This document shows, one piece after another, positions 3,273 through 19,921 of a stretch of 24,755 nucleotides of DNA; position 1 is the stretch's first letter; the number at the start of each line of letters is the position of its first letter. The notes beneath the pieces are model-generated. The model worked only from the letters and a program-made list of their open reading frames with translations, was not told the DNA's origin and searched no databases. The DNA is from a virus, in IMG/VR virus record IMGVR_UViG_3300023174_000606, positions 1 through 24,755 of that record; one strand, given 5' to 3'. A program made the position numbers and the translations under genes.

Positions 3273-3425
3273 ATGGAAAAGACAATAGAAATACAGTTGC
3301 AAGAATTGCGTGAGCAGATTGCAAACGAGATTGAAGATAGGTTTTGGGAGATAAGCGCCGACTCGCCTGTTGATGTTGCACAAAAGATAATTAAGGAATG
3401 TGTCAAGATTGCGAGAGGCAAATGA
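3273..3425 (+). CDS. small helical protein upstream of the methyltransferase
   Basis: A 50-aa protein (MEKTIEIQLQELREQIANEI...) that looks entirely helical and charged. GGGGG stands 6 nt before its ATG. Its TGA overlaps the ATG of the C5 methyltransferase (ATGA), so it is the first gene after the structured RNA gap and is probably coupled to the methyltransferase. I recognise no family. It could be a methyltransferase partner or an unrelated small protein. Confidence 0.6.
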   Translation: MEKTIEIQLQELREQIANEIEDRFWEISADSPVDVAQKIIKECVKIARGK

Positions 3426-4069
3426 GGCTCCTTGACCTTTACTCTAAAGCGGGGGGGGCAGCAATGGGTTATCACCGCGCAGGGTTTGAGGTTGTTGGCG
3501 TGGACATCAAAAAGCAAAAGCGATTTCCATTTACATTCATTCAGGCAGATGCGCTGGAAGTTTTAGAGGATAAAGCATTTCTTGATTCTTTTGATGTAAT
3601 ACACGCATCACCACCTTGCCAAACTCATAGTGCAACCAAGCACTTGCGCAATGCACAAGGAAAGACCACAACAAAGATTGATTTAATTCCTCAAACTAGA
3701 GCTGCACTTATTGCAAGCGGCAAGCCTTATGTTATTGAGAATGTTCCGGGTGCGCCCTTAATCAATCCCATCCAAATGTGTGGTTCATCCTTTGGGCTTA
3801 CTGCCCGCCGCCATAGGTTGTTTGAATCTAATTATGAACTGACGGGCTCAATTTGTGATCACAAAACACAAGGAAAGCCTGTTGGGATTTATGGTTCAAT
3901 GCGCGATGAAATACCCGGTGGCGGTCACACCGCAAAGACAATTGAACAAGCACGAGATGCAATGGGAATTGATTGGATGATTTGGGGCGAGTTGGTAGAG
4001 GCAATACCACCGGCTTATACATTTGAAATTGGCAAACAACTAATGGGGGCAATTAATGAGACTAATTAA
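3422..4069 (+). CDS. DNA (cytosine-5-) methyltransferase, short phage form
   Basis: This 215-aa enzyme carries the C5-MTase motifs in order: motif I LLDLYSKAGGAAMGY (residues 3-17, usually DLFxGxGG), motif IV SPPCQ with catalytic Cys66, motif VI ENV at 106-108, motif VIII LTARRHRLFES (127-136) and a motif X-like GKQL near the end. It is shorter than bacterial enzymes and has little room for a target-recognition domain, as is common in phages. It methylates DNA, probably to evade host restriction, since no partner nuclease is adjacent. The ATG at 3422 follows GAGAGG. An eight-G run codes for Ala-Gly-Gly in motif I. It overlaps the next gene by 14 nt. Confidence 0.9.
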   Translation: MRLLDLYSKAGGAAMGYHRAGFEVVGVDIKKQKRFPFTFIQADALEVLEDKAFLDSFDVIHASPPCQTHSATKHLRNAQGKTTTKIDLIPQTRAALIASGKPYVIENVPGAPLINPIQMCGSSFGLTARRHRLFESNYELTGSICDHKTQGKPVGIYGSMRDEIPGGGHTAKTIEQARDAMGIDWMIWGELVEAIPPAYTFEIGKQLMGAINETN

Positions 4070-5306
4070 CGCAGATTGCATTGAGGCAATGAAGGCAATG
4101 CCTGATAACTTGGTGGATTCCATTGTCACCGACCCGCCGTATGAGCTTGGCTTTATGGGCAAATCGTGGGATGCAAGTGGTATTGCATTTAATGTTGATG
4201 TATGGCGTGAGGCGTTGCGAGTAATTAAGCCCGGCGGTCACTTGATTGCTTTCAGCGGTTCTCGCACCTATCACCGAATGGCAGTTGCCATTGAGGATGC
4301 AGGGTTTGAAATCCGCGATCAGATTATGTGGGTTTATGGGTCAGGGTTTCCTAAGTCGCATAACATTTCAAAAAATTTGGATAAAGCCAAAAACATTGAA
4401 GTTTGGGAAAATAACGCTTACGGCGGTGGCAATTCAAAATGCGATAAATGCGGAAAATGGTTGATTTCAGGAAGCCCCTGCCAATGCCCAAAGCCAATTA
4501 TTGAATTTAAGACGGAAGCCGCGAAGCAATGGAACGGCTGGGGCACCGCACTGAAACCAGCACACGAGCCAATGGTGCTTGCTCGCAAGCCGTTGATTGG
4601 CACCGTTGCCAACAATGTGCTGACTTACGGCGTTGGCGGATTGAACATTGACGGGTCAAGGGTTGGGACAACAGTTGAAACTTGGCCAAAATCAAGATCA
4701 TTTCCTTATGGCCAAGAACGAACTTATGGCAGCAAAGATGCTGCAACCGAATTGACTCAAGATGCACCCGCAGGTCGCTTCCCCGCCAACTTCATTCACG
4801 ATGGCAGTGATGAGGTTGTGGCGTTGTTTCCTGATACAAAATCGGGTGGTAAACAAACAAGTGATTTTGCAAACGAAGATGGATTGTTTGGATTCGGAGG
4901 TCAGCCTCAAAATACAACCCAACCATCATCAGGCAGCGCCGCTCGATTCTTTTACTGCGCAAAGGCAAGCAAGCGTGACCGCAATGAGGGGCTTGATGGG
5001 TTTGAAACAGTTGTTGCTGGCGGTATGCAGGGCAGACAAGATGGCTCAATGGGTTCAATCACAATGAACAAAAATCATCACCCAACTGTAAAACCAACAA
5101 CGCTGATGCAATACTTGGTTCGCCTAGTGACACCGCCAAACGGTGTTGTGCTTGACCCGTTTATGGGTTCAGGTTCAACTGGCAAGGCGTGTGCCTATGA
5201 AGGCTTTGATTTCATTGGCATAGATCAATCGGCAGAGTATGTGGAGATCGCGAAGGCTCGCATTGACTTTGCCCTGGCAGATAAAGCAACAGAGTTGCCG
5301 TTATGA
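4056..5306 (+). CDS. beta-class DNA adenine-N6/cytosine-N4 methyltransferase
   Basis: The 416-aa protein opens with the catalytic DPPY motif (residues 26-29) and ends with the SAM-binding DPFMGSGSTG block. This IV-then-I order defines the beta class. DPPY favours adenine N6 methylation, but N4-cytosine cannot be excluded. A Cys4 knuckle (Cys129, Cys132, Cys142, Cys144 in CDKCGKW...CQCP) lies between the motifs with the target-recognition region. HPTVKP before motif I is typical of the family. GGGGG is 6 nt upstream of the ATG. It follows the C5 enzyme with a 14-nt overlap, so the phage probably marks its DNA in two ways. No restriction enzyme is nearby. Confidence 0.9.
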   Translation: MRLINADCIEAMKAMPDNLVDSIVTDPPYELGFMGKSWDASGIAFNVDVWREALRVIKPGGHLIAFSGSRTYHRMAVAIEDAGFEIRDQIMWVYGSGFPKSHNISKNLDKAKNIEVWENNAYGGGNSKCDKCGKWLISGSPCQCPKPIIEFKTEAAKQWNGWGTALKPAHEPMVLARKPLIGTVANNVLTYGVGGLNIDGSRVGTTVETWPKSRSFPYGQERTYGSKDAATELTQDAPAGRFPANFIHDGSDEVVALFPDTKSGGKQTSDFANEDGLFGFGGQPQNTTQPSSGSAARFFYCAKASKRDRNEGLDGFETVVAGGMQGRQDGSMGSITMNKNHHPTVKPTTLMQYLVRLVTPPNGVVLDPFMGSGSTGKACAYEGFDFIGIDQSAEYVEIAKARIDFALADKATELPL

Positions 5307-5461
5307 ATAAAAACGATGAAATAATTTCACACTTAGCAAAAGAGCTGTGGGCATCATTTGAATACGGCTTGCCGGTATCACCTAGTTCAATGGCAAATTA
5401 CATAGTACGACAAATTGAAATTGCAGGCTTTGAGATTGTGAAGGTGGGAACCAATGAGTGA
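5303..5461 (+). CDS. small protein between methyltransferase and primase
   Basis: A 52-aa reading frame (MNKNDEIISHLAKELWASFEYG...) overlapping the methyltransferase stop by 4 nt and the primase start by 8 nt. It looks like a single helix-rich domain and I recognise no family. The tight overlaps on both sides and full use of the gap are the main reasons to believe it. Confidence 0.6.
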   Translation: MNKNDEIISHLAKELWASFEYGLPVSPSSMANYIVRQIEIAGFEIVKVGTNE

Positions 5462-7565
5462 ACTGTTACCAATCGCCTTGCGATTTTTAGCACAAAAAAT
5501 TTCAGTAGTTCCAGTTGCCAATGACGGTTCTAAGCGGCCTGCATTTGCTTGGCAGAGATTTCAACAAGAGTTGCCCATTGCAGATGAATTGCTGATGTGG
5601 TTTAAAGATGATGTCAATGGCATTGGTGTTATCACTGGCAAGGTATCAGGCAACCTAGAGATGCTAGAACTCGAAGGTCGGGCCGTAGCTCAAAAGATGC
5701 ACCTTGATATTGCAGAGATTGCAAACAATTCAGGGCTTGGCGATTTATGGAACGCACTCAACGCTGGTTATGTCGAGATCACACCTTCAGGTGGGCTTCA
5801 TTGGCTTTACCGCGTATCCAATGGTGAGTTACCAGGCAACACGAAGTTGGCACGAAAGCCTGGCGAAAATGGCGGGGTTGATGTGTGGGCAGAGACTCGA
5901 TCTGAAGGCGGATTTACTATCACTGCACCTTCAGGTGGCACTACCCACCCAAGCGGGGGCAATTGGACACTGATAGGTGGCTCCATTGAAACAATTCCGA
6001 CAATTACAATGGAACAACGAGCAGCACTGCACAACATCTTTGCAATGTTTGACGAGATGCCGAAAGCTGAAAGTATCCAACAAGAAGTTGCCACTAAGCA
6101 CGATGGCTTACTGACACCAGGGGATGATTTTGGTTCACAACATACTTGGGAAGAACTGTTGCAACCTTTGGGCTGGACCGTTGTTTATCGCAAGGGTGAG
6201 GCAACTGTTTGGCGCAGACCAGGTAAGAATGAAGGCATCAGTGCTACCACCAACTTCAATGGCAACGATAAGTTTTATGTGTTTTCAACATCAACTCAGT
6301 TTGATGCTGAAACTTCATATTCTAAGTTTGCCTTTTACGCCACTCTCAAACACGGTGGAGATTTCAAGGCGGCAGCAACCGACCTACGAAATCAAGGCTA
6401 CGGGGCGCAGGGGCTTAATTCTTTTGATTTAAGCAATTCACTGATGCCTGCAAACACACTACAAACCCCACCACAAGCCACACAAGGCGATTTGAGCGAT
6501 GATGAATCAAGTTGGAAGCCAATTGCACTTAAAGATTACTTTGACGGCTTATTCGCAGCACCCATTGCAACGATTCTAAAACGCTCAGATGGTCACGGCT
6601 TGATTTACACGGGTCGCGTTCATTCCATTTATGGTGAGTCAGAATCGGGTAAATCGTGGGTAGCACAAATTGCCACGGCTGAATGTCTTAAAGCTGACAA
6701 AAAGGTGATCTACATTGACTTTGAATCAGATGCCATTGACATTGTGAACCGATTGAAAGCATTGGGTGTCAGCCGTGCCAACCTTTTGCAATACTTCACC
6801 TACATTCGACCTGACGGCCCACGCGATAGCGATGACCCGTATTGGAAGGCGATACTTGAGCCTGATTCTGCCGAATTGGTCATTATTGATGGTGTCACCG
6901 AATCCCTGACAATGTGGGGTGGTGAGACTAAAGATAACGATGCCATCACCCGCTGGATGCGCATATTTCCAAGAACAGTAGCAACTGCCAGTGGCGCTGC
7001 CGTTGTGCTTATTGACCACATCACCAAAAATGCAGAAACACGGGGGCGGTTTGCCATTGGCGGCCAAGCCAAACTTGCCACCATTGATGGCGCTGCCTAT
7101 CTCGTTGAACCGCTAGAGGCACTTGCACCTGGTCGAACTGGAACGCTGACAATGAGAGTGACCAAAGATCGCCCTGGGTTCATCCGCAAGATTGCAGGTA
7201 TGTGGAGAAAGTCAGACCGCACCCAAGAAGCTGCAATTTTCACCATTGATTCAACCAAAGCGCAGATGCAATACATTATCAGCGTGCCATTGATTGAAGA
7301 TGAAATGGAAGCCAACAAAGAGTTCAAGAAGCAAAAAGAGGTTGCCGAGTTTATCCACAACCACCCAGGCGCTTCACGGCGATTGGTGGCAGATGGCGTG
7401 ACTGGTTCAAAAGAGGCCATTGGTGAAAGGTTGGCTGATCTTGTTGCTGGCGGTTGGATTGAAAACCGTGGCAATGACAGGTCATTTATTCTATATATCA
7501 CCGACAATGGCAAGAGCCATTTCAACCTTTTGGATGCCGAAATTACCCAATTGAAGGTGAACTAA
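5454..7565 (+). CDS. bifunctional primase-polymerase / replicative helicase
   Basis: This 703-aa protein joins a prim-pol domain to a RecA-fold helicase. Residues 1-180 show the prim-pol pattern: GIGVITGKVSGNLEMLELEG (acidic pair E72/E74, where many relatives have D-x-D), TPSGGLHWLYR with His116, and VDVWAE...APSG. A linker domain follows (about 225-320). The ATPase has Walker A GESESGKS (394-401), Walker B LVIID (475-479) and a VVLIDH sensor with His522. The C terminus (about 635-700) is a winged-helix-like region. It should prime and unwind phage DNA. The repeat array directly downstream could be its origin. The two glutamates at the prim-pol site deserve a check of activity. Confidence 0.88.
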   Translation: MSELLPIALRFLAQKISVVPVANDGSKRPAFAWQRFQQELPIADELLMWFKDDVNGIGVITGKVSGNLEMLELEGRAVAQKMHLDIAEIANNSGLGDLWNALNAGYVEITPSGGLHWLYRVSNGELPGNTKLARKPGENGGVDVWAETRSEGGFTITAPSGGTTHPSGGNWTLIGGSIETIPTITMEQRAALHNIFAMFDEMPKAESIQQEVATKHDGLLTPGDDFGSQHTWEELLQPLGWTVVYRKGEATVWRRPGKNEGISATTNFNGNDKFYVFSTSTQFDAETSYSKFAFYATLKHGGDFKAAATDLRNQGYGAQGLNSFDLSNSLMPANTLQTPPQATQGDLSDDESSWKPIALKDYFDGLFAAPIATILKRSDGHGLIYTGRVHSIYGESESGKSWVAQIATAECLKADKKVIYIDFESDAIDIVNRLKALGVSRANLLQYFTYIRPDGPRDSDDPYWKAILEPDSAELVIIDGVTESLTMWGGETKDNDAITRWMRIFPRTVATASGAAVVLIDHITKNAETRGRFAIGGQAKLATIDGAAYLVEPLEALAPGRTGTLTMRVTKDRPGFIRKIAGMWRKSDRTQEAAIFTIDSTKAQMQYIISVPLIEDEMEANKEFKKQKEVAEFIHNHPGASRRLVADGVTGSKEAIGERLADLVAGGWIENRGNDRSFILYITDNGKSHFNLLDAEITQLKVN

Positions 7566-7702
7566 GGTGTACCGTACTGTACCTTTTGTGTACCTTTTTA
7601 TTTTAGGTACACAGGCAGTTATGAGCGTGATCGGTGTGCGTACCGTTCCGCTTTATTGTATAAAGCGGAATAGGTACACCATCACACTCGGTACAGGTAC
7701 GC
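7566..7702. repeat. eight GTACC-type repeats around a perfect palindrome (candidate origin or operator)
   Basis: Four 7-mers read forward (GTGTACC at 7567 and 7588, CTGTACC at 7577, GCGTACC at 7638) and four read inverted (GGTACAC at 7606 and 7673, GGTACAG at 7690, GGTACGC at 7696). Each forward variant has its exact reverse complement among the inverted set. The first three are spaced 10-11 bp apart, one helical turn. In the middle, an 11-bp perfect inverted repeat (7646-7656 with 7660-7670, TGT spacer) is flanked by GTACC and GGTAC. AT-rich runs lie at 7595-7605. The position after the primase-helicase gene suits an iteron origin; a repressor operator is the alternative. Confidence 0.6.
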
Positions 7703-7705
7703 CTA

Positions 7706-8047
7706 ATGAGTGACTTAGATTTCAAACCTATCAACTGCCACAAATGTGGCAACCTAGTGTGGGCAGGGGTGTCAGCCACCAGCCGTTGCGACATCAAACT
7801 TGATACAGACCGACTCAACATTGTGCAAGAGATTGAAAAGTTATCCACAGGCATTGCAACTTATGAAATCCACCGCACCAGCCAATCCTTTGAAGCTACA
7901 CGCCGTACCCCAGTCAGAATGGGTGCCAAAGAGCCAATTGTGCTTGCCACCCACACCTGCAGATCAATGACTATTTTTGTGCAAGAGCCACCGCAATACT
8001 TCCAGCGACCACAAACTGCAACTACAACAAGTGAGGTGCCATTTTGA
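7706..8047 (+). CDS. zinc-finger-like protein, function unknown
   Basis: The 113-aa protein has a CHKCGNLVWAG knuckle at residues 11-21 and later cysteines (SRC near 28, HTC near 84) that could complete a metal site. The middle is polar without clear domains, and the C terminus is Thr/Gln-rich. Similar short CxxC proteins accompany actinophage replication genes. It begins just after the GTACC repeat array, so its expression may be controlled by it. It overlaps the next gene, which appears to begin with TTG. Confidence 0.6.
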   Translation: MSDLDFKPINCHKCGNLVWAGVSATSRCDIKLDTDRLNIVQEIEKLSTGIATYEIHRTSQSFEATRRTPVRMGAKEPIVLATHTCRSMTIFVQEPPQYFQRPQTATTTSEVPF

Positions 8048-8775
8048 ACTGCAACATCTGCCAACGCCCGACAGAGATAACAACCTGCCGCCGATGCCAT
8101 AGTTCAATCACCAGTTGGCTTGGCGCTATTCCCAGTTTGCAGGTAATGGCAGGTGACTACATAACACCAGGGCGATCAGGCTCAGGCACCGTCAGCGCCG
8201 AACGCTCCATCGGTGTCAATGTCAATGCGCTCGATTATTCAATGGCAATTGAGTTGCTAGGCATCTTGCATAGTTGGGAGTCAGAGATTCGCAGCGCACG
8301 GCAGTTGACACCGCCTGCGCTACTGAAGAAGGAACCAACAACCGATATGGAAGTGCAGGTTGCTTGCGACTTTCAACTTGCCCACCTTGAATGGACACTT
8401 AATCAGGAATGGGCAGCAGATTTCTACAATGAGATCAAAGAGCAACACGCAAAGGGAATGGCTGCTGCAAAGCAATTTGTTGAGCAACCCCGCAGGATTC
8501 CTTGCCCAACCGATGAGTGTGGCAGGTATGTAGTTATTGATGCCGAAAACCTTATGGCAGATGTGAGTTGCTTTGGGTGCAAACAATCCTGGACAGTATT
8601 GCGATTGGTGGCACTGGCAATGAGCAACCCCAACCGTAAGTTCTTTTTAGATGTTGAGGCCATAGCTTTGTGGTTGGGCATCAGCCAACGGCAGGTGCAT
8701 AAAATCATCAAGGCCAATGGCATTGCCAAGAATGGCAAGATGTATGACTTGGCAGCAGTCATTGCCAACAGATAA
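8044..8775 (+). CDS. zinc-finger and helix-turn-helix DNA-binding protein
   Basis: This 243-aa protein has an N-terminal Cys4 finger (CNICQRP...CRRC, residues 3-19), a helical middle (about 65-155), a second metal site (CPTDECG... with CFGC) around 163-190 and a C-terminal HTH (EAIALWLGISQRQVHKIIKANGI). The layout matches an actinophage family often called HTH or zinc-finger DNA-binding protein. It starts with TTG overlapping the previous TGA, preceded by GAGG. A transcription or origin-binding role is possible because the GTACC array lies one gene upstream; that link is inference. Confidence 0.68.
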   Translation: MNCNICQRPTEITTCRRCHSSITSWLGAIPSLQVMAGDYITPGRSGSGTVSAERSIGVNVNALDYSMAIELLGILHSWESEIRSARQLTPPALLKKEPTTDMEVQVACDFQLAHLEWTLNQEWAADFYNEIKEQHAKGMAAAKQFVEQPRRIPCPTDECGRYVVIDAENLMADVSCFGCKQSWTVLRLVALAMSNPNRKFFLDVEAIALWLGISQRQVHKIIKANGIAKNGKMYDLAAVIANR

Positions 8776-8778
8776 AAC

Positions 8779-8811
8779 TTGACAGAAAAGTTCTAATTCC
8801 TTTGCTACACT
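8779..8811 (+). promoter_or_regulatory. promoter-like element
   Basis: A perfect -35 hexamer TTGACA (8779-8784) is followed by an extended -10-like TGCTACACT (TG at 8803, TACACT 8806-8811). The spacer is 21 bp, longer than the usual 17, so either the -10 is nearer (TTGCTA at 8802) or the TGn-extended box works without the -35. It lies in one of the few gaps between genes, upstream of the small genes and the packaging region. Confidence 0.45.
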
Positions 8812-8842
8812 TTCGTTAACAGGTATTGCCATCCACTTAATC

Positions 8843-8876
8843 AGCCCAGCCAATAGGTTTGGGCTTTATTCATTTA
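8843..8876 (+). terminator. intrinsic terminator-like hairpin
   Basis: AGCCCA (8843-8848) pairs with TGGGCT (8860-8865), and CC/GG pairs (8850-8851 with 8856-8857) extend the stem around an AATA loop. A T-rich tail CTTTATTCATTT follows. It sits only about 30 nt after the predicted -10, so it may end upstream transcription or act as an attenuator on the new transcript. Confidence 0.5.
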
Positions 8877-8886
8877 TGGGATAGGT

Positions 8887-9033
8887 ATGGATACCGAGAC
8901 AATACAAGAGATAGATGAGGCGTTATCACACGCCGTAGATACTCGCTCCAAAACAATTGATTCAAAGAAACACATCGTTGATAGATTCATTGACGATTTA
9001 CTTGATAGCCGATTGGAGCTAACCAAATGCTAA
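8887..9033 (+). CDS. small acidic helical protein
   Basis: A 48-aa frame (MDTETIQEIDEALSHAVDTR...) beginning just after the terminator-like hairpin, with AGG upstream. It overlaps the next gene by 7 nt. It looks helical, with alternating acidic and basic residues, and I recognise no family. Gene-style overlap and frame continuity support it. Confidence 0.5.
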   Translation: MDTETIQEIDEALSHAVDTRSKTIDSKKHIVDRFIDDLLDSRLELTKC

Positions 9034-9206
9034 GCATTGCGGTAACAGTCGGTGATGTGTCAACAGACATTGTGACAGATCAGCCAATGTCATTTGAAGG
9101 AATCGAAACATTATTGTTAAGAGCGACTAACTCAACTCTTGATGCTTACAACCGATATGTGGTTGTCAATGAGGATTTGGAATCTTTAACAGAGGATGAT
9201 GAGTAA
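9027..9206 (+). CDS. small protein, function unknown
   Basis: A 59-aa frame (MLSIAVTVGDVSTDIVTDQP...) starting inside the last codons of its neighbour and ending 11 nt into the Endonuclease VII gene. The end is strongly acidic (NEDLESLTEDDE). No family is recognised. Overlaps on both sides are typical of the real genes in this window. Confidence 0.5.
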   Translation: MLSIAVTVGDVSTDIVTDQPMSFEGIETLLLRATNSTLDAYNRYVVVNEDLESLTEDDE

Positions 9207-9862: not shown

Positions 9863-9977
9863 CCCCCCGTGGCACTACTGGGTACGGGTATAAAGTTGCG
9901 CAAGCGTGCGGGGTATAAACCCCGATGCCCTGCAAACGCAGAGTTCCGCAAAATGGGATTTGGGGGGTTTGCCTGAA
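9861..9977. other. repeat- and palindrome-rich gap, candidate cos/packaging region
   Basis: Between the HNH nuclease and the terminase block lie a GC-rich AGCCCCCCGTGGC (9861-9873), a direct repeat GGGTATAAA (9886-9894 and 9911-9919), the 8-bp palindrome TTGCGCAA (9896-9903), an inverted repeat CGGGG-TATAAA-CCCCG (9909-9924) and CTGC-AAAC-GCAG (9930-9941). Actinophage cos sites usually lie just here, upstream of the small terminase. No cut position can be read from one sequence. Alternatively this is only leader DNA of the next gene. Confidence 0.4.
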
Positions 9978-19104: not shown

Positions 19105-19512
19105 ATGGCCCGTATCGTATTAACAGATGCCAAAATCACAGTTAATGGTGTCAATCTAAGCAGTTACTGCACAAGCGTTACACTTAACACAAGCGCAGAT
19201 GTTGTTGAAACTACAGGTTTTTCATCAACTGCTGCAAAGACTCGCGTTGCTGGATTGCAGGATAATTCAGTAACACTTGAATTTGCTCAGGATTATGGAA
19301 CTTCACTTGTTGAAGCAACAATTTATCCTTTACTTGGATCAACAACAACAATTCTTGTATCACCTACTTCAACAACAAGTGCTACATCACCTTCATACAG
19401 CTTCACTGCATTGGTTTCTGAATGGCAACCACTATCAGGCGGCGTTGGAGAGTTAGCAACCGCATCTGTCACCTGGCCAATCTCAGGTGCTATCACAAAG
19501 GCAACTTCATAA
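19105..19512 (+). CDS. major tail (tube) protein, copy A
   Basis: This 135-aa beta-rich, Ser/Thr-rich protein starts MARIVLTDAKITVNGVNLS. It carries VVETTGFSST, AGLQDNSVTLEF and the ATIYPLLG and SEWQPLSGGVGELAT segments of short actinophage tube subunits, which stack as hexameric rings. GAGGAAG precedes the start. About two thirds of its residues are identical to the next gene's product by my hand alignment (90 of 136 columns). Which copy dominates in the tail cannot be told, but copy A has the better ribosome site. Confidence 0.8.
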   Translation: MARIVLTDAKITVNGVNLSSYCTSVTLNTSADVVETTGFSSTAAKTRVAGLQDNSVTLEFAQDYGTSLVEATIYPLLGSTTTILVSPTSTTSATSPSYSFTALVSEWQPLSGGVGELATASVTWPISGAITKATS

Positions 19513-19513
19513 T

Positions 19514-19921
19514 ATGGCACGCATCGTATTAACAAACGCATCAGTTGTATTTGGTACAACAGACCTTTCAGCATATTGCACAAGCATTGCGCTTAATACT
19601 TCATACGATATCGTTGAAACAACAGGTTTTGGCGATACCGCAAAGAAGCGCATTGCAGGCTTGCAGGATAATTCAGTTTCCTTTGAATGGAACCAGGATT
19701 ATGCAACAAGCGCACTTGAGGCAACAATTTACCCATTATTGGGAACTGCAGTAACAGTAGTTGTGAAGCCTGTTGCAACAACAGTTGGACCTACAAATCC
19801 AAGTTACACATTCTCAGCGCTCATCTCAGAGTGGCAACCACTTTCAGGTGGCGTGGGTGAACTTGCAACAGTAAGTACAACTTTTCCAATTTCGGGTACA
19901 ATCACAAAAGCAACTGCATAA
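19514..19921 (+). CDS. major tail (tube) protein, copy B
   Basis: Also 135 aa, it shares MARIVLT, VETTGF, AGLQDNSV, EATIYPLLG and SEWQPLSGGVGELAT with copy A, but differs in the loops (for example FGDTAKK versus FSSTAAK) and between the strands. It starts two bases after copy A stops (TAATATG) without a ribosome site at normal distance, so translation probably relies on coupling. A second tube subunit may mix into the tube, form a different ring, or decorate it. A TTG-start reading 27 nt upstream is unlikely. Confidence 0.78.
   Translation: MARIVLTNASVVFGTTDLSAYCTSIALNTSYDIVETTGFGDTAKKRIAGLQDNSVSFEWNQDYATSALEATIYPLLGTAVTVVVKPVATTVGPTNPSYTFSALISEWQPLSGGVGELATVSTTFPISGTITKATA

Follow-up and report, generated by a model that had tools for sequence, protein, structure and literature searches.

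A fold-back array of heptamers behind a phage Prim-Pol/helicase gene as a probable replication origin with a changing repeat word

The closest known counterparts of the locus reported here come from plasmid, satellite and phage replicons. In pRN1 of Sulfolobus, a 100-nt stem-loop behind the gene of the PrimPol ORF904 is needed for replication, and its shape is kept while its sequence is not; the replication protein bears a C-terminal winged helix, which was proposed to bind 'not yet identified' motifs at the stem-loop, while iterons were said to be absent (PMC4234260). A stem-loop similar to that of pRN1 was also described for phage BIP-1 (PMC4234260). The alpha protein of satellite phage P4 unites primase, helicase and winged helix in one protein, has a primase of the bacterial (Toprim) type and binds repeats at its own origin (PMC4234260). 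PLE satellites of the Vibrio phage ICP1 carry an initiator that is conserved outside its DNA-binding domain; this domain covaries with the iteron origin, and on several occasions the two have been swapped together. The reader domain is RepA_N, the iterons are 30-bp semi-palindromes, and the specificity was shown by experiment (PMC8263062). The polymerase of phage NrS-1, a Prim-Pol/helicase, is thought to initiate replication at specific template sites and recognizes TTTGGTTA and GTG (PMC7102993, PMC8718748), and template sites that contain GTG serve as start sites for the PrimPols of both pRN1 and NrS-1 (PMC8718748).

The element described here occupies positions 7566-7703 (no strand assigned) of a 24,755-nt stretch of viral DNA (IMG/VR record IMGVR_UViG_3300023174_000606), the whole of which is called the window. 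Comparative evidence from sequences indicates that this element is quite probably the replication origin of a tailed freshwater phage, recognized by the phage's own Prim-Pol/helicase. A first-pass annotation had offered three readings of the locus, namely an iteron origin, a centromere-like site and a multi-operator, and the first of them is the best supported. Unlike NrS-1 with its two single-copy sites, the element here is an eight-site array with a fold.

The repeat array and its neighbourhood

The array of 137 bases follows the stop codon of the 5454-7565 gene and precedes the ATG at 7706; it holds eight heptamers (7567-7702), four of the GTACC type in forward orientation and four exact reverse complements. 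Repeat 1 (GTGTACC, 7567-7573, + strand) and repeat 2 (CTGTACC, 7577-7583, +) form the 5' strand of a closing stem, P1, and repeat 3 (GTGTACC, 7588-7594, +) is the 5' arm of a hairpin, P2, whose 11-nt loop consists of A and T only (TTTTTATTTTA, 7595-7605) and might be an unwinding spot. Repeat 4, the reverse complement of GTGTACC (7606-7612, -), is the 3' arm of P2, and the conserved core TGAGCGTGATCGGTGT (7622-7637, +), which includes TGAGCGT, lies downstream. Repeat 5 (GCGTACC, 7638-7644, +) and repeat 6 (reverse complement of GTGTACC, 7673-7679, -) are the 5' and 3' arms of P3, and between them stands the terminal hairpin P4 (7646-7670), with 11-bp perfect arms (7646-7656 and 7660-7670) and a 3-nt loop. 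The 3' partner of the core stem, CATCACACTC (7680-7689), pairs with GAGCGTGAT, while repeat 7 (reverse complement of CTGTACC, 7690-7696, -) and repeat 8 (reverse complement of GCGTACC, 7696-7702, -), which overlap by one G at position 7696, provide the 3' strand of P1.

The first-pass annotation had described 4+4 heptamer copies, one-turn spacing in the left group and a central 11-bp perfect inverted repeat directly behind a primase-helicase gene, and all of this was borne out, with left-group spacings of 10 and 11 bp. The symmetry it claimed is approximate, since the repeat order is + + + - + - - -; its account of repeats and inverted repeat was right, but the conserved fold-back structure had been overlooked. 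No 6-mer cluster of the window is denser than the six non-overlapping TGTACC copies found here within less than 160 bp; in 60 first-order Markov sequences the count never exceeded five. Counting both strands, four of the five GTGTACC copies in the window and four of six in a 33-kb relative fall inside the array, so that the repeats are clustered here and an even scatter through the genome, which the annotation had named as a refuting outcome, is not seen.

The gene upstream (5454-7565, +) encodes a protein of 703 aa, the proposed initiator and primase, which matches phrog_19930 (E 4e-58) and combines a Prim-Pol domain (PF09250, aa 8-169, E 4e-10) with a helicase part of the AAA_25/RecA-like families (PF13481, E 6e-10; not SF3). 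Pfam gave no confident name for its C-terminal domain, and aa 594-703 were predicted, with 25 relatives, as a MarR-like winged helix with pLDDT 85-90 over the domain. Foldseek placed this model nearest to solved structures of MarR-family regulators (probability 1.00), and a VIA comparison with MarR-type structures gave Z ~11. The winged-helix part (aa 618-692) is encoded at 7305-7529 (+); the helix-turn-helix consists of predicted helices at aa 642-648 and 653-666, the latter being approximately the recognition helix, and the wing of strands at aa 669-671 and 680-682.

All evident genes of the window lie on the + strand, and a WhiB-like gene at 378-827 suggests an actinobacterial host. Two adjoining DNA methyltransferase genes (3398-5306), of the C5 type (PF00145) and the N6/N4 type (PF01555), are situated upstream of the primase. 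Between ORF8044 and the next gene, the segment 8778-8870 contains TTGACA, TACACT 21 nt on, a hairpin (AGCCCA/TGGGCT) and then TTTATT; it could be a promoter/terminator pair or a small RNA, and it is absent from the site-scan list. Contigs L022, L025, L012, L069 and L178 end at ...GGTATAAAC, equal to window positions 9910-9920, and in L026 sequencing-adapter sequence (AGATCGGAAGAGC...) directly follows window base 9920; the likely physical genome end is therefore 9920/9921, and the window reads through the joined ends. Moreover, the neighbouring genes at 19105-19512 and 19487-19921 encode clearly similar proteins (MARIVLTxA...YCTS...NTS..VETTGF), a tandem duplication that may concern a tail gene.

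Scans of IMG/VR with the Prim-Pol protein yielded ~80 relatives and later more distant ones (numbered L). The element stands behind the primase gene in nearly all of the ~80 whose contigs extend far enough; relatives with the primase but without repeats at this place would have refuted the first-pass proposal, and the relatives do carry the element there, written in other words. Searched with a covariance model trained on 37 elements, 15 of 16 larger records each had a single site, any second match being this site read on the opposite strand; the sixteenth record is of the GCGTTGTG type with its own kind of element. The phage collection contained no close relative of the Prim-Pol, the best matches being those of Arthrobacter phages, with 46-48% identity over half of the protein; neither the TGAGCGTGAT core nor a comparable element was recognized behind their Prim-Pol gene, where the next gene begins at the stop or at most ~25 nt from it. 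The genome collection gave a single weak Prim-Pol relative, from Saccharopolyspora (49% over aa 350-600), which gives no host assignment.

Two observations on position and composition speak against the origin reading, as do the hybrid elements, the 3' strand of P1, the co-inheritance of a DNA segment and the imperfect residue code described below. In L011 (5856-6700), L020 and L082, one additional gene, different in L082 from that in L011 and L020, is inserted between primase and element, and the parted element remains before the ORF7706 homologue where the contig shows that gene. In addition, cumulative GC skew climbs throughout the window without a turn at the element; the strand-skew switch looked for at 7.6 kb is absent, and skew was discarded as origin evidence.

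Fold-back structure and repeat words

Among all 140-nt windows of the stretch, the lowest-energy fold is at the array. The + strand of the element reaches -68.5 kcal/mol (z = -9.0) when folded as RNA, and -34.8 (z = -7.8) when folded as DNA. Across the relatives, the element keeps one order, with two to three forward words, P2 (word and complement), the TGAGCGT core, the long hairpin P3/P4 and reverse words, which pair with the first forward words as the closing stem P1. TGAGCGT is on the + strand in 63 of 70 unique elements, on the - strand in six and missing in L071. In 37 aligned elements, 98.7% of cells were paired, 121 cells were altered on both sides against 49.5 in shuffles, and the covariation score was 0.238, compared with 0.101 for shuffles and at most 0.053 for slid structures. 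The covariation extends beyond the word, to P3 pairs such as GTGAT/ATCAC, GTGAG/CTCAC and GTAAT/ATTAC and also to the arms of P4, which vary in sequence among relatives with pairing retained. Because pairing is kept by compensatory changes, also outside the word, the fold-back form is, judging from this alignment, under selection, and the acting form may be single-stranded DNA, a cruciform or RNA.

Copies within one element mostly share one word, and the word differs among lineages. Seven words or more were found: GTGTACC, GTGTTCC, GTGTGCC (L172-177, with mixed GTGCA/GTGCC in L170), GGTGTGGTG (L062-064), GCGTTGTG (L072, L074-077, L079, L116), GTTTCCC (L071) and ATCCTGC (L178, L179). A tree of Prim-Pol aa 1-600 requires no fewer than 15 changes of word. 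In several elements (L121, L140, L148, L082, L041), GTGTACC and GTGTTCC copies occur together, as where GTGTACC stands against GGGAACAC in P2; these hybrids may have arisen by recent recombination or be caught partway through a word switch. The word and the 3' strand of P1 do not always agree, and in most GTGTTCC elements repeat 2 reads CTGTTCC and faces an unaltered GGTACAG. Since repeats without a matching partner also switch, a reader protein rather than pairing alone is indicated.

The same switch of unpaired repeats bears on the first alternative, that the element is a structured RNA, either an mRNA leader controlling translation of ORF7706 or a small RNA, in which the repeats would be halves of stems and the word changes compensatory. 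The strong predicted RNA fold with its compensatory changes fits such an RNA. The same holds for the position of ORF7706, which starts 3 nt past the closing stem and whose expected ribosome-binding site overlaps the P1 3' strand, and for the fidelity of the element to ORF7706 where a gene is inserted behind the primase. Moreover, of the 63 elements whose core is on +, 55 fold more stably as the + strand, and in the GTGTACC and GTGTTCC groups this strand is usually stabler and retains more G-U pairs. The preference fails, however, in the GTGTGCC group (L170, L172-177), which folds better on the opposite strand, and was dropped as proof of RNA. In the GCGTTGTG clade (L072, L074-L077, L116), the two flanking genes are unchanged while the opposite strand carries the core; the element thus appears inverted relative to its genes and to transcription, which speaks for an element acting as DNA. 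Against an RNA, too, is that repeats with nothing to gain from pairing switch as well, that no promoter-like site was found in 5200-9100, and that the word tracks a DNA-binding domain, as described below. In Rfam, no family reached its gathering score, and only weak chance matches appeared by E-value threshold. An RNA role is accordingly considered unlikely.

Repeat word and winged helix

When GTGTACC and GTGTTCC elements were compared, the associated residues concentrated at Prim-Pol aa 620-701, with p down to 1e-14, whereas association in the next two genes reached only 1e-6 to 1e-7. The recognition helix differs in step with the word, being SKxxIGxx with GTGTACC/GTGTTCC, DKxLIxER with GTGTGCC, DDKAKKER with GGTGTGGTG, DDKTLLAR with GCGTTGTG, KSTTVLTR with GTTTCCC and GDHTIYER with ATCCTGC. 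Elements L062 and L046 differ in word, and their primases show an abrupt boundary: identity per window is 82-100% up to aa 600 and then 47, 29 and 53% over aa 601-703.

Part of this association reflects co-inheritance of a DNA segment, because third positions of codons 601-700 also associate with the word more than elsewhere; in the synonymous-site control, moreover, the association of positions 1 and 2 relative to position 3 in codons 601-650 was no higher than elsewhere. The raw association is therefore insufficient as proof, and Mantel and independent-pair tests were added, with the downstream gene as linkage control. This gene (7706-8047, +), a small CxxC protein of phrog_10480 with unassigned function, is at equal distance, both code segments being within ~255 nt of the element. 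In partial Mantel tests, the word was correlated with the winged helix given the downstream gene (r = 0.55, 0 of 999 permutations as high). With the roles reversed, the downstream gene showed no correlation with the word once the winged helix was accounted for (r = -0.05, 841 of 999). At every level of core identity of at least 0.65, winged helices were less alike in pairs with different words than in pairs with the same word; above 0.95 Prim-Pol core identity, their similarity was 0.72 and 0.93, respectively. Five independent GTGTACC/GTGTTCC contrasts on well-supported branches, which are few, showed residues 650, 659, 654 and 649 changing in the same direction 4.3-4.6 times and in the opposite direction 0 times. 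Nine sites in aa 601-703 reached a net value of at least 3.5; the downstream protein, aa 1-300 and aa 525-600 had no such site. The switching residues map to the turn and the first half of the recognition helix in the predicted structure. The residue code is not clean, as the window protein goes with GTGTACC yet has E654 and V649, the residues usual for GTGTTCC, and as in L057-L061 an SKEAIGER helix identical to that of the window accompanies the GTGTTCC word.

In these tests, then, the word tracks the winged helix, and neither the remaining Prim-Pol nor the equally near downstream gene; a functional bond between word and winged helix is argued from the lack of independent association in the downstream-gene control. 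The first-pass annotation had named the proteins encoded at 5454 and 8044 as possible binders, and the reader of the repeats is likely the C-terminus of the former. ORF8044 was rejected as binding partner, as its residue association with the word is no better than linkage predicts.

A MarR-like winged helix is a typical repressor fold and the element sits just ahead of a gene start, so the array could also be a multi-operator at which the Prim-Pol winged helix regulates transcription into ORF7706/ORF8044, with the origin elsewhere. We hold this to be quite improbable: sigma-70-like promoters in 5200-9100 numbered zero, eight sites with a conserved fold-back exceed the needs of an operator, and fusion of the reader domain to primase and helicase domains points to origin binding. 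A centromere-like partition site, a recombination or attachment site or a packaging site, although such sites can have symmetric repeat arrays, is very improbable, as ParA-type ATPases (PF13614) and tyrosine integrases (PF00589) were absent from 13 records (14 of 14 controls positive in both searches), which led us to reject an attachment site and a ParA-dependent partition site, and as the likely genome terminus near 9920, ~2.2 kb downstream of the element, led to rejection of a packaging end there.

Origin function and known systems

If the element is the origin, the C-terminal winged helix (aa ~618-692) would bind the eight heptamers as double-stranded iterons, and once loaded, the Prim-Pol would assist the opening or extrusion of the A+T-rich loops and of the long hairpin. 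The Prim-Pol domain would then start primers on the exposed strand, perhaps at the GTG-containing core or at word sequences, GTG being present in the core and in several words. The winged helix and the iteron word would form a specificity module, exchanged or re-evolved together among related phages. We tentatively propose that this amounts to an exchangeable origin-recognition code, in which winged helix and word may have passed between phages, or evolved anew, jointly and on at least 15 occasions, giving at least seven mutually exclusive origin specificities in one phage family. Should such a code exist, it would likely be driven by the need to prevent co-infecting phages or satellites from cross-using the origin, or to escape nucleases directed at it, for which PLE and Odn are a precedent.

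For the question of how PrimPol replicons find their origin, these phages offer more than 70 natural origin/initiator pairs, at least seven words, repeated switches and few co-switching recognition-helix residues, and swaps can directly test the motif, the residues that read it and what the hairpin does. The comparison suggests, too, a PLE-like diversification of origin specificity among abundant freshwater phages; with the element as an anchor, origins could be marked in thousands of uncultured phage genomes.

In the literature searched, which held little usable on P4 and on the coevolution of origins and initiators, neither a comparable combination of features nor so large a natural word set was found. 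Like pRN1, the locus has a fold-back element right behind a gene whose product is a PrimPol-helicase ending in a winged helix; the shape of the element is conserved and its sequence is not. Unlike in pRN1, copies of a repeated word make up the fold, the choice of word goes with the winged helix, and the helicase is RecA-like AAA_25 and not SF3, so that the element is not classed as a member of the pRN1 type. The clustering of short repeats at a single locus and a primase-helicase with a winged helix as proposed reader resemble satellite phage P4, although the primase here is an archaeo-eukaryotic Prim-Pol (PF09250) and that of P4 is of the Toprim type. As in PLE, winged helix and repeats covary through repeated switches while the remaining Prim-Pol is conserved; in contrast to PLE, the winged helix is carried by a Prim-Pol, the repeats are heptamers within a hairpin element, the words number at least seven, and the evidence comes from sequences. 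On the best reading, the element would combine iterons, as in P4, with a stem-loop directly behind the PrimPol gene, as in pRN1, and would be exchanged as a module, as in PLE.
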